Source: Acidobacteriota bacterium (GTDB lineage Bacteria; Acidobacteriota; Terriglobia; Versatilivoradales; Versatilivoraceae). From it: 64,000 nt of DNA. Positions 60,728 to 64,000 of this stretch are shown here, piece after piece (positions within the stretch are counted from its first letter, which is position 1; every line of letters begins with the position of its first letter). The stretch covers positions 1 to 64,000 of the forward strand of contig JAJDUG010000056.1 of the NCBI GenBank assembly GCA_022826755.1. Direction: 5' to 3'. The position numbers and the translations under genes are program-made. The notes under the pieces were generated by a model. It was not told the origin of the DNA and made no database searches. It saw only the letters and a list, made by a program, of their open reading frames with translations.

Positions 60728-62137
60728 ATGGCTCCACAGCAACCATCCTGTCAGGTCTCGACCGTCGCTCCCCGACAGCCTGTTCCGAGGACTTGTCGTG
60801 CCCGACTGAAACGGGTGGCCCTGGCAGGTCTGGTCCTGATCCTGTCAGCGGTCTCCGCTCTCGGCCAGGCCGGCGCCCCAAAGCAGGCCGAGACTCCGGG
60901 CACGCTGCAGAGCGGTCTGGGGAAGGATCTGCCGGGCTGGCTCTCCTTGTCCGGCGAGTTCCGTTACCGCTTTGAAAACCTGCAGGGACTGGGCTACAGC
61001 GGGGACAGCGACGACGGCTACGGACTGACCCGGACCCGCCTGGAGGTGGGCATCCGGCCTGTCCCCTGGCTGAACTTCGGGATTCAGGCCCAGGACTCCA
61101 GGGCGCCGGGGATCCGGCCGGCGCTGTCCAGTTCCGGAGCCGTCCGAGATCCCTTCGACCTGCGCCAGGCCTATGCCGAGATCGGCGCCAGCCAGGCCCC
61201 GGCATCGCTGAAAGTGGGCAGGCAGGCGCTGATCTACGGCGACTCGCGCCTGATTGGGGCTCCAAACTGGTCCAACACCTCCCGCGTCTTCGACGCCGCA
61301 AGGCTGCAGGTGCGGGGATCGGGCGCCAAGCTCGACCTTTTCTCGGCCTCGGTGGTGCGAAACGACCCCAACCGCCGCTTGAACCGATCGGTCGAGGGAG
61401 AATACCTGCACGGCCTCTACGGCTCCCTGGAGAACGTCATCCCGGGATCCACGCTCGAACCCTACCTGCTCTGGCAGACCAAGTCCTCGGTCGTCAACGA
61501 GCTGAACGCACTCGGAGACCTGGACCGTTATACCCTGGGACTGCGGGCCTGGGGCAAAGGGCTCGGGCCCTGGGACTACAACGCCGCCCTGGTCCGCCAG
61601 TGGGGGCAGGCGGCAGGCGCTGAAATCCAGGCCTGGGCCGGCTACGGAGAACTGGGCTATTCCATCGACGCCAGGCTGAACCCGCGCCTCCATGTGCAGT
61701 ACAACTTCGGATCGGGCGACAAGGATCCCGACGACGGCCGAATCGAGGGCTTCGTGGACCTCTATCCCACCACCGCCTTTGTGTACGGCCGCGCCAACCG
61801 GCTCGGCTGGCGCAACCACAAGAGCCTGCGCCTGGGGAGCGAGCTCAAGCCGCACTCCAAGCTGACGCTACTTTTGGAGTTCAACGCCTTCTGGCTGGCC
61901 TCCCGCACCGACGCCCTCTACAACCCGGGCGGGCGAGTCGCGGTGGCCCGGCCCCCCGGGGGCGCCCGCGACACAAAGGTCGGCAACGAAGTCGACGCCG
62001 TCTTCACCGTGCCGGTAACAGCCAACTTCAGCCTGGGAGGCGGCCTGGCACACCTGCTTCCCGGCCCCTTCCTCAAGGCCAATTCCCCCGGCCACTCATT
62101 CACCTACTCCTACCTGTTCACCAGCTACAAGTTCTGA
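60728..62137 (+). CDS. Alginate-export-like outer-membrane porin
   Basis: A 469-residue protein with signal peptide (RVALAGLVLILSAVSALGQA) and a beta-barrel domain like AlgE/alginate_exp: LSLSGEFRYRFENLQGLGYS, GYGLTRTRLEVGIRPVPWLN, LKVGRQALIYGDSRLIGAPN-WSNTSR, FTYSYLFTSYKF with C-terminal Phe. It may pass anionic solutes or sugars. It follows the kinase gene by 133 bases on the same strand and could be part of, or a target of, the signalling operon. ATG at 60728 is uncertain; TTG at 60725 is adjacent. Confidence 0.85.
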   Translation: MAPQQPSCQVSTVAPRQPVPRTCRARLKRVALAGLVLILSAVSALGQAGAPKQAETPGTLQSGLGKDLPGWLSLSGEFRYRFENLQGLGYSGDSDDGYGLTRTRLEVGIRPVPWLNFGIQAQDSRAPGIRPALSSSGAVRDPFDLRQAYAEIGASQAPASLKVGRQALIYGDSRLIGAPNWSNTSRVFDAARLQVRGSGAKLDLFSASVVRNDPNRRLNRSVEGEYLHGLYGSLENVIPGSTLEPYLLWQTKSSVVNELNALGDLDRYTLGLRAWGKGLGPWDYNAALVRQWGQAAGAEIQAWAGYGELGYSIDARLNPRLHVQYNFGSGDKDPDDGRIEGFVDLYPTTAFVYGRANRLGWRNHKSLRLGSELKPHSKLTLLLEFNAFWLASRTDALYNPGGRVAVARPPGGARDTKVGNEVDAVFTVPVTANFSLGGGLAHLLPGPFLKANSPGHSFTYSYLFTSYKF

Positions 62138-62211: not shown

Positions 62212-62301
62212 CGATTCATCCCCGCGATTGCAGGGAACAGCCAGCCCTGTTTCTATGCGACGAGTACCAGGCCGGTTCATCTCCGCGCAGGCGGGGAACA
62301 G
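62212..62301. CRISPR. Remnant type I-E CRISPR array: two repeats, one spacer
   Basis: Two 29 bp repeats (62212-62240 CGATTCATCCCCGCGATTGC... and 62273-62301 CGGTTCATCTCCGCGCAGGC...) both end GGGAACAG and flank a 32 bp spacer (62241-62272). The repeat and spacer lengths and the sequence are those of type I-E. Both repeats have point changes from the family consensus. The canonical repeat orientation is on the minus strand. No cas gene is present in the window. Confidence 0.8.
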
Positions 62302-62334
62302 ATTTGCAGCCCGGAACGGACATTGCCCTCTCTC

Positions 62335-62360
62335 CCTGTGGATTCCAGGCTTTCCACAGG
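62335..62360. other. Small hairpin after the CRISPR remnant
   Basis: CCTGTGGA (62335-62342) pairs with TCCACAGG (62353-62360) around a ten-base loop. There is no T-tract, so it is not a standard terminator. It falls between the array remnant and the first DUF29 gene. Confidence 0.45.
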
Positions 62361-62448
62361 CAGTCTATGCAGCTATGCACGACTTGACTTTAGAGCCGAA
62401 TAGCGGCATAACCAACCACAGAAACTCATACAAGCCGGAGTACGTCGG

Positions 62449-63063
62449 ATGGAAACAGTTACCGGAATCCCGGACTCCCAGCAAACCCGTGAGCGGGAGA
62501 TGGATGATCTCTACCGGCGAGATCCCTATTCCTGGGCAAGGAAGCAGGCCGATGCTCTGCGGCGCCGCAAATTCGATGCCGTCGATTGGAACAATGTTAT
62601 CGGGGAGATTGAAGACGTGGCTCGACGCTATTCGGACCGTATTGCAAGTCAGTACGCCAGGATCATGGAGCATTTTCTCAAGTTGCAATACCGGCGCCCC
62701 AAAGAAAATGAGCCTGTCGCCGGCTGGGTGAGAACCGTGCACAATGCTCGCGCCCAGATTGACGTTGTTCTCCATCATAATCCCGGACTCAAGGCCCACT
62801 GCGATCAACTATTCGAACAGGCGTGGCCGCGCGCCAGAAACAGCGCCATAAGTGCCTTCGTCCATCATGCCACCGAAGCGATCCAGAACCAGGCGGCCTT
62901 GCTCCGTGAACAAAAGCGCCTGATGCGAGAATGGGATCGCGTATTGCCTCAGCAGAATCCCTATGCCCGCAACCTGGTCGAGACTCCATTGGAGTTTCCA
63001 GACAGGGTCCACTTGCCGCAGCGCCCACAAAGCCACCACCTGCCTGCCCCGCGTCCTGACTGA
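62449..63063 (+). CDS. DUF29 family protein, copy 1
   Basis: A 204-residue DUF29 protein. Typical motifs are DLYRRDPYSWARKQADALRR, FDAVDWNNVIGEIEDVARR and RIMEHFLKLQYRRPKENEPV-AGW. The function of DUF29 is unknown; it is common in cyanobacteria and appears in multiple divergent copies per genome. The copy at 63376 shares the same motifs but is clearly diverged. It sits between CRISPR-repeat remnants at 62273 and 63126. Confidence 0.85.
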   Translation: METVTGIPDSQQTREREMDDLYRRDPYSWARKQADALRRRKFDAVDWNNVIGEIEDVARRYSDRIASQYARIMEHFLKLQYRRPKENEPVAGWVRTVHNARAQIDVVLHHNPGLKAHCDQLFEQAWPRARNSAISAFVHHATEAIQNQAALLREQKRLMREWDRVLPQQNPYARNLVETPLEFPDRVHLPQRPQSHHLPAPRPD

Positions 63064-63125
63064 AACCGCTGAAACCCACTTCCTGAGCCATTCCACAAAA
63101 AGCTCAGTGCTTTTTGAGTAGATGG

Positions 63126-63154
63126 CGGTTCATCCCCGCGCCTGCGGGGAACAG
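63126..63154. CRISPR. Isolated type I-E CRISPR repeat
   Basis: A single 29 bp repeat CGGTTCATCCCCGCGCCTGC followed by GGGGAACAG, the closest of the three to the I-E consensus. No second repeat lies 32 bp away on either side. Downstream is the tail of another gene (63155-63239). Confidence 0.75.
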
Positions 63155-63239
63155 CTTGCTCCTGGCCAAGGTCGGCGACCTCGCCCACAGGCGGATCCAC
63201 GAGCTCCAGCGCGAAGAGGCCAAGTCCCAAGACAACTGA
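63155..63239 (+). pseudogene. Orphan 3' gene end fused to a CRISPR repeat
   Basis: Reading directly out of the repeat, a frame encodes LLLAKVGDLAHRRIHELQRE followed by EAKSQDN and a TGA at 63237-63239, eight bases before a strong terminator. It looks like the end of a helical protein whose 5' part has been lost at the repeat. The family is unknown. Confidence 0.4.
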
Positions 63240-63246
63240 TTTTCTT

Positions 63247-63278
63247 GAGGCGGCGGCTTCGGCCGTCGCCTCTTTTTT
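63247..63278 (+). terminator. Rho-independent terminator
   Basis: GAGGCGGCGGC-TTCG-GCCGTCGCCTC followed by six T: an 11-base stem with one mismatch and a stable TTCG loop. It would stop transcripts from the orphan gene end and from DUF29 copy 1, before DUF29 copy 2. Confidence 0.9.
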
Positions 63279-63375
63279 GCTCGCGCCCGGCCCGCTTCCT
63301 TACCGGCGCTTGACTTCCCCCCCCAGCCGGTGCATAAACGCACCTATACCCTTTCGCCCGCTTTGGAGGTGACCG

Positions 63376-63993
63376 ATGGCCCGCGCCGCCAAAATCCCTG
63401 ACGCCCAACCGCTTACCGAGCCCGATACGCACGAGCACTACCTGAAAGATTCCTACGCTTGGGCGCTATCGCAGGCTGCAGCCATGCGCCGGCGCGATTT
63501 TGGCGCTGTTGACTGGGAAAATGTAATAGAGGAGATTGAAGACTTGGCCCGACGCGACGCTCACAGCCTTAGGAGTCAATACGCGCGAACCATCCAGCAC
63601 CTATTGAAACTCCAATACCGTCACCCCGGCGAAAGCGAACCCGTCGCCGGCTGGAAAGCCTTGATCGACCATGCGCGCACTGAAATTCAGGAGATTCTTG
63701 ACGACAGCCAAAGCCTGAAAGCCACCCGTCACGACTTGTTGGCCAAAGCCTGGCTTCTCGGCCGCAAGGACGCGATCAACGCCTTTGTTGCGCAGGCCAT
63801 CCGCAATATCAAATCTGATTCCACCCATGACCGAAAGAAAAAACAACTTCGGCGGGAATGGGACCGGCTCTTGCCTACAAATATTCCTTACACCCTCAAC
63901 CAGCTTGAGGCTACCGACTGGTATCCCACTCCCAAGACTATCTCCCGAAGGCCCCATGCTGACCGTCCTTCCGACCCTGAATGGTCTCGCTAA
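63376..63993 (+). CDS. DUF29 family protein, copy 2
   Basis: A 205-residue DUF29 protein: HEHYLKDSYAWALSQAAAMR, FGAVDWENVIEEIEDLARRD, RTIQHLLKLQYRHPGESEPV-AGW, LRREWDRLLPTNIPYTLNQL. GGAGGTGACCG precedes the ATG. It is a diverged paralogue of the 62449 gene, about the same length, and follows a terminator, so it is a separate transcription unit. Function unknown. Confidence 0.87.
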   Translation: MARAAKIPDAQPLTEPDTHEHYLKDSYAWALSQAAAMRRRDFGAVDWENVIEEIEDLARRDAHSLRSQYARTIQHLLKLQYRHPGESEPVAGWKALIDHARTEIQEILDDSQSLKATRHDLLAKAWLLGRKDAINAFVAQAIRNIKSDSTHDRKKKQLRREWDRLLPTNIPYTLNQLEATDWYPTPKTISRRPHADRPSDPEWSR

Positions 63994-64000
63994 GTTCCGC

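Follow-up and report, generated by a model that had tools for sequence, protein, structure and literature searches.

The intergenic site between a porin gene and yraN in an Acidobacteriota bacterium carries a series of type I-E-like CRISPR repeats that have foreign genes between them. We consider it probable that foreign DNA was captured at the repeats of a dying I-E array, and that the DUF29 genes now found there came along as passengers. The decay of an array is in itself ordinary, and the unusual feature of this locus is that foreign pieces end right at the repeats. The window, which is the whole stretch of 64,000 nt that was analyzed, belongs to a contig (C77) that runs on to position 66392 in a draft genome, probably a MAG, and the locus is known from this one genome. 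An initial annotation of the window had proposed that gene insertions or recombination between repeats broke up a decayed I-E array. The presence of such an array is confirmed here, and its break-up by foreign DNA is supported. The coordinates of the features are collected in the table.

Features of the porin-yraN site (positions are those of C77 unless another contig is named)
Feature	Position	Strand	Description
Alginate-export-type porin (PF13372)	60767..62137	+	Left chromosomal flank of the island
R1	62212-62240	+	I-E-like repeat, 29-nt form; left island edge, probable trailer end of the old array
Spacer R1-R2	62241..62272	+	Only spacer of normal length, 32 nt
R2	62273-62301	+	I-E-like repeat, 3 mismatches
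Interval R2-R3	62302..63126	+	DUF29 gene 1 with its own hairpin/T-run
DUF29 gene 1	62449..63063	+	204 aa, PF01724, 98.4 bits
R3	63126-63154	+	I-E-like repeat; over 28 nt identical to R5
Interval R3-R4, part in the window	63155..64000	+	ORF end, terminator-like hairpin, DUF29 gene 2
Terminator-like hairpin and T-run	63246..63279 (about)	+	ggcggcggcttcggccgtcgcctctttttt, read directly
DUF29 gene 2	63376..63993	+	205 aa, PF01724, 95.5 bits
R4	starts 64485		Outside the window; same orientation as R1-R3
R5	starts 65091		Outside the window; same orientation as R1-R3
R6	C26:9433		Degenerate I-E-like repeat, a few bases from the yraN stop

The three repeats reported in the window are real, since shuffling the window 100 times gives a chance expectation of 0.00, all three share one orientation, and the 61-bp spacing of R1 and R2 is the canonical I-E unit of 29+32. 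The repeats are palindromic, of I-E type, and 28-29 nt long. A C precedes each of the 28-nt cores of R1 (GATTCATCCCCGCGATTGCAGGGAACAG, 62213-62240), R2 (GGTTCATCTCCGCGCAGGCGGGGAACAG, 62274-62301), and R3 (GGTTCATCCCCGCGCCTGCGGGGAACAG, 63127-63154), which gives the 29-nt form. The trailer-end repeats R1 and R2 are degenerate, with 4 mismatches between R1 and R3 over 28 nt, and R3, R4, and R5 are almost identical. R6 was spotted post hoc and has 5 mismatches, compared with 13 for the next-best site in the same stretch. The same 29-nt repeat type builds ordinary arrays with 61-bp spacing in four other genomes (G080, G128, G188, and G237). A search for the repeat in viral contigs found none, and the R1-R2 spacer, a single query that the initial annotation had suggested comparing with phage genomes, had no match in phage records or IMG/VR.

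As a separate observation, a dispersed element of the congeners has, in a constant position by pieces of a tyrosine-integrase 3' end, a palindrome that resembles the I-E repeat (GATTCATCCCCGCGTCTGCGGGGAACGG). The element was seen at loci L019, L020, L027, L028, L029, L030, L032, L034, L035, and L037 (genomes G001, G002, G003, and G005). Its near flanks are conserved to about the same degree as the palindrome itself, which may be a solitary repeat unit or an att-related site.

Within 2.4 kb beyond the window, C77 contains two further repeats (R4 and R5), a phage-like segment, and an unrelated array. The latter extends from C77:65161 to the contig end and comprises 17 repeats of 37 nt (GTTTCAATCCGCTCCCCTGACCGAAGCCAGGGGAGAT) separated by spacers of 34-37 nt. 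A second contig, C26, begins in the same I-C repeat and continues with cas2, cas1, cas4, cas7, cas8c, cas5, and cas3 of type I-C, after which come yraN (UPF0102) and cysS. We infer from synteny and array orientation that C26 lies next to C77, with which it has no sequence overlap. Rightward extension, which the initial annotation had recommended for locating the main array and its cas genes, leads through R4 and R5 to an I-C array and a complete I-C operon (cas3-5-8c-7-4-1-2), not to an I-E system. Comparison of the I-C spacers with the island and the window gave no 16-nt match. Two spacers of the I-C array (also L008:3161-4392) are present twice, and the spacer closest to R5 reads in one frame TSPPYWGLRGY, which we take to recall a phage DNA methylase motif.

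In the congeners G003 and G005, porin, yraN, and cysS follow one another directly and the whole island is missing. The homology of G001 to the window reaches ~62200, ending 12 bp before R1. Because of this empty site and this boundary, the block from R1 to R6 is, as judged by genome comparison, an island bounded on both sides by I-E-like repeats, and the intergenic site that it occupies is variable. The site is a hotspot, holding different inserts in G001 and G006. The G006 site (L156, on G006:C53) has a MITE-like element of ~240 bp, with 22-bp terminal inverted repeats (CCAGCCCGCATTTCTCACCAGG), beside a DUF29 remnant.

The I-E array at this locus is, to judge from gene content, a relic, because neither I-E cas genes nor a leader were found. 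No Cas7 of type I-E and no second Cas1 were detected in the genome, the sole Cas1 being of I-C type; a search for Cse1 was also negative, with a model insensitive enough to miss Cse1 of E. coli. Canonical arrays with this repeat type have the leader at their right end, and the island lacks the motifs common to the leaders of G188 and G080. Elsewhere in the genus, an I-E system survives in G001, where a 42-repeat array (L157, G001:C1 ~4.936-4.942 Mb) with every repeat 61 bp apart lies near a Cas7-type I-E gene; its repeat, GGTCCATCCCCGCGCCTGCGGGGGAAAC, is slightly different from that of the window. A remnant consisting of an I-E repeat, a spacer, and a repeat 60 bp apart occurs at a different locus of another congener (L023:4836-4924, G006:C59).

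Regular spacers of ~32 nt are not found, the R1-R2 spacer alone being normal. The spacings from R1 to R5 are 61, 853, 1358, and 606 bp, which leave intervals of 825 bp (R2-R3), 1330 bp (R3-R4), and 578 bp (R4-R5). By comparison, five other arrays of the phylum have 169 intervals in total, every one of which is 49-70 bp long. In the I-E array L186 (G128:C95), where the regular unit is 61 bp, two odd intervals measure 70 and 49 bp and have partial-indel spacers.

The contents of the long intervals are varied. The order given by the initial annotation (repeat, spacer, repeat, DUF29, repeat, orphan gene end, terminator, DUF29) was recovered in full. What did not carry over is the truncation implied by “orphan gene end,” which is not proven because the ORF after R3, whose end reads LLAKVGDLAHRRIHELQREEAKSQDN before the stop, has a possible TTG start just past the repeat and no detected homologue. 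The hairpin/T-run of DUF29 gene 1 stops ~11 bp before R3. Interval R3-R4 extends to contig position 64484, and its part outside the window encodes on the minus strand an RHH antitoxin-like pseudogene, interrupted by an in-frame stop, and 57 aa from the C-terminus of a ParA protein. This ParA homology (57 of 217 aa) stops exactly at the edge of R4, and the 160 missing N-terminal residues include the P-loop. Genes for ParA, RHH, and three DUF29 proteins occur together in another Bryobacterales MAG (L076). Interval R4-R5 holds overlapping minus-strand ORFs in phage-like style, and a search for relatives of its genes in phages, plasmids, viral contigs, and 396 genomes gave nothing credible. A 13-codon ORF cut at R4 (MIDPPPYHLIQGD) recalls the start of a DNA methylase, a tentative lead for which a degenerate scan gave no match. 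No transposase was seen in these repeat-bounded intervals, no repeat is split, and the outer limits of the island fall within a few bases of repeats.

By our reading, the porin-yraN site was formerly occupied by a type I-E array transcribed from right to left. This array is dead in the present genome, in which no I-E cas genes were detected, and the island has no leader. If foreign DNA was captured at the repeats, plasmid- and phage-like pieces entered there, the R2-R3 segment perhaps first and the R4-R5 segment last. Between the intact repeats R2-R5 there are today foreign segments on the kilobase scale in place of 32-nt spacers, and a complete I-C system would sit between R5 and the degenerate R6 at the yraN end. 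The DUF29 genes would have traveled with the foreign DNA, one of them beside the parA/RHH partition-type genes, and would not have caused the arrangement.

The base that completes the 29-nt repeat bears on the mode of entry. Of 64 repeats in canonical arrays of this type, 62 have the same base here. G is kept in R1, R2, R3, and R6, and is replaced by C and T at R4 and R5, and it follows that the foreign DNA begins exactly at the 28-nt edge of the latter two. Under the 2/64 background, the lack of G in two of three intervals has P ~0.003. Entry at repeat ends, by an integrase or by a repeat-carrying element, would fit these two junctions, compared post hoc, better than recombination within spacers or a spacer-based assembly jump, because both of the latter would keep the G. 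What weighs against capture at repeats is that one junction alone, that of ParA at R4, is fixed by homology, the search with the R4-R5 genes having given nothing credible, and that the evidence comes from a single locus of a draft genome.

Repeat-independent insertions and deletions could also have happened to leave five repeats amid foreign DNA. This ordinary decay is a serious rival, if on balance an unlikely one, and is favored by the hotspot character of the site, with its other inserts in G001 and G006, and by gene remnants such as the interrupted RHH gene. It accounts poorly for the intact state of every repeat, for the ParA homology and island limits that end within a few bases of repeats, and for intervals in which no transposase was seen.

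Homologous recombination is a distinctly unlikely explanation. Under it, the array would have taken up mobile elements either through a lone I-E-like repeat that they carried or through a spacer sequence present in both, and deletions would later have trimmed them. A review discusses both routes into arrays (PMC8616872). Repeat-mediated entry permits any base at position 29, and the congeners hold many solitary I-E-like palindromes in the dispersed elements near integrase 3' ends. However, those elements have no flanks in common with the window repeats and were rejected as their source. The version that relies on spacer and protospacer predicts the G that two of the three intervals lack. In addition, the ends of the intervals are not direct repeats of one another, and an extra step is needed for the ParA gene to be cut exactly at a repeat.

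We regard as quite improbable a third explanation, that a failing I-E Cas1-Cas2 placed kilobase fragments rather than 33-nt prespacers at the leader-end repeat, with the 28-nt repeat duplicated at each insertion (R3 to R4 to R5). Several observations agree with such giant spacers. The inserts are flanked by the near-identical intact R3, R4, and R5, the abnormal intervals are the three closest to the former leader, and the positions of the segment ends seem to bear no relation to genes, as where ParA is cut at R4. In E. coli type I-E, the 29th repeat base derives from the incoming spacer, and the R4 and R5 junctions lie on the 28-nt edge. Yet Cas1-Cas2 measures length, and we know of no natural kilobase spacer. 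Moreover, the I-E cas genes are gone from this genome, and the argument from the 29th base concerns two junctions. It is still less probable that the R2-R5 segments are, specifically, random linear plasmid or phage fragments inserted by Cas1-Cas2 without length control, the repeat being duplicated each time. If the giant-spacer reading were true, CRISPR arrays could serve as gene-capture sites.

An assembly chimera is very improbable; here, assembly on short k-mers would have used repeats or spacers to link fragments of the array with contigs of plasmids or phages. The concern applies to intervals R3-R4 and R4-R5, and arises because in this draft genome a contig breaks off within a CRISPR array. 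Against it, the porin on one side and the I-C array and yraN on the other fit chromosomal synteny, the G006 remnant at the same site is 72% identical in nucleotides to DUF29 gene 1, and 28-nt repeats fall below the usual final k. A jump based on spacers would again predict G at position 29.

Both DUF29 genes called by the initial annotation stand, scoring above the PF01724 gathering cut-off of 22.5 bits, and gene 2 is ~45% identical to gene 1. Given the G006 remnant, no fewer than two species have had a DUF29 gene at this location. That DUF29 cassettes land specifically on CRISPR-like repeats, the alternative proposed initially, is scarcely credible: it draws on two DUF29 genes between repeats at this locus alone, whereas no I-E repeat and no CRISPR array of any kind turned up at 73 DUF29 loci of other genomes (1.25 Mb, flanks of ≤10 kb), only the present genome among 297 of the phylum has both DUF29 (found in 4) and the I-E repeat (found in 5), no repeat occurs in the 10 kb inspected for its third DUF29 gene (C24), the G006 remnant has no repeat, and other intervals hold phage-like genes (R4-R5) or the I-C system (R5-R6) in place of DUF29. 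By the initial annotation's own criterion, this lack of enrichment, together with an intact array of unrelated repeats (I-C), refutes in these samples the landing-site proposal, and that proposal only. Plasmids of many hosts carry DUF29, with RelE/ParE-type genes and further small genes nearby, and DUF29 is best read as cargo of foreign DNA whose link to the repeats is incidental. The statement that its function is unknown also stands, the only clear structural relative of the predicted DUF29 structure being 3fcn (Z 10.5), itself a DUF29 structure of unknown function. The other VIA-align rows all had Z < 6, which is uninformative for a helical bundle. A mention of DUF29 in a HEPN paper proved to concern DUF294.

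The locus resembles several known systems in part. Like orphan or degenerate I-E arrays, it has 29-nt palindromic repeats, one 61-bp unit, degenerate trailer repeats, and no detected cas genes of the same type, but its long intervals hold foreign genes and not 32-33-nt spacers. Arrays interrupted by insertion sequences have been reported, for example in Shigella (among the cases cited in PMC8616872). These are likewise broken by mobile DNA, whereas here no transposase was found, no repeat is split, and the edges coincide with repeat ends. Solitary repeat units and RNA anti-CRISPRs in mobile elements have been proposed to let such elements recombine into arrays (PMC8616872, PMC10651486). They share with this locus the tie between single CRISPR-like repeats and mobile DNA, but the present repeats, known from sequence alone, stand several in a row on a chromosome with one normal spacer. 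Integron cassette arrays also place genes in a row between recurrent palindromic sites. However, the repeat's GTTCATC and GGGGAAC do not fit the attC core GTTRRRY/RYYYAAC (judged on the repeat sequence only), and the contents here are partly truncated fragments. Our literature search on long or gene-filled CRISPR intervals found nothing on point.

If the sharp junctions at repeat edges are not real and recurrent, the locus would be one decayed array in a variable site, and mainly a record of I-E loss beside a complete I-C system. If they are, repeats would gather kilobase foreign DNA through a loose integrase or through recombination. Array decay would then be one way in which genes are gained, and would provide an intermediate, open to testing, between spacer acquisition and transposition.
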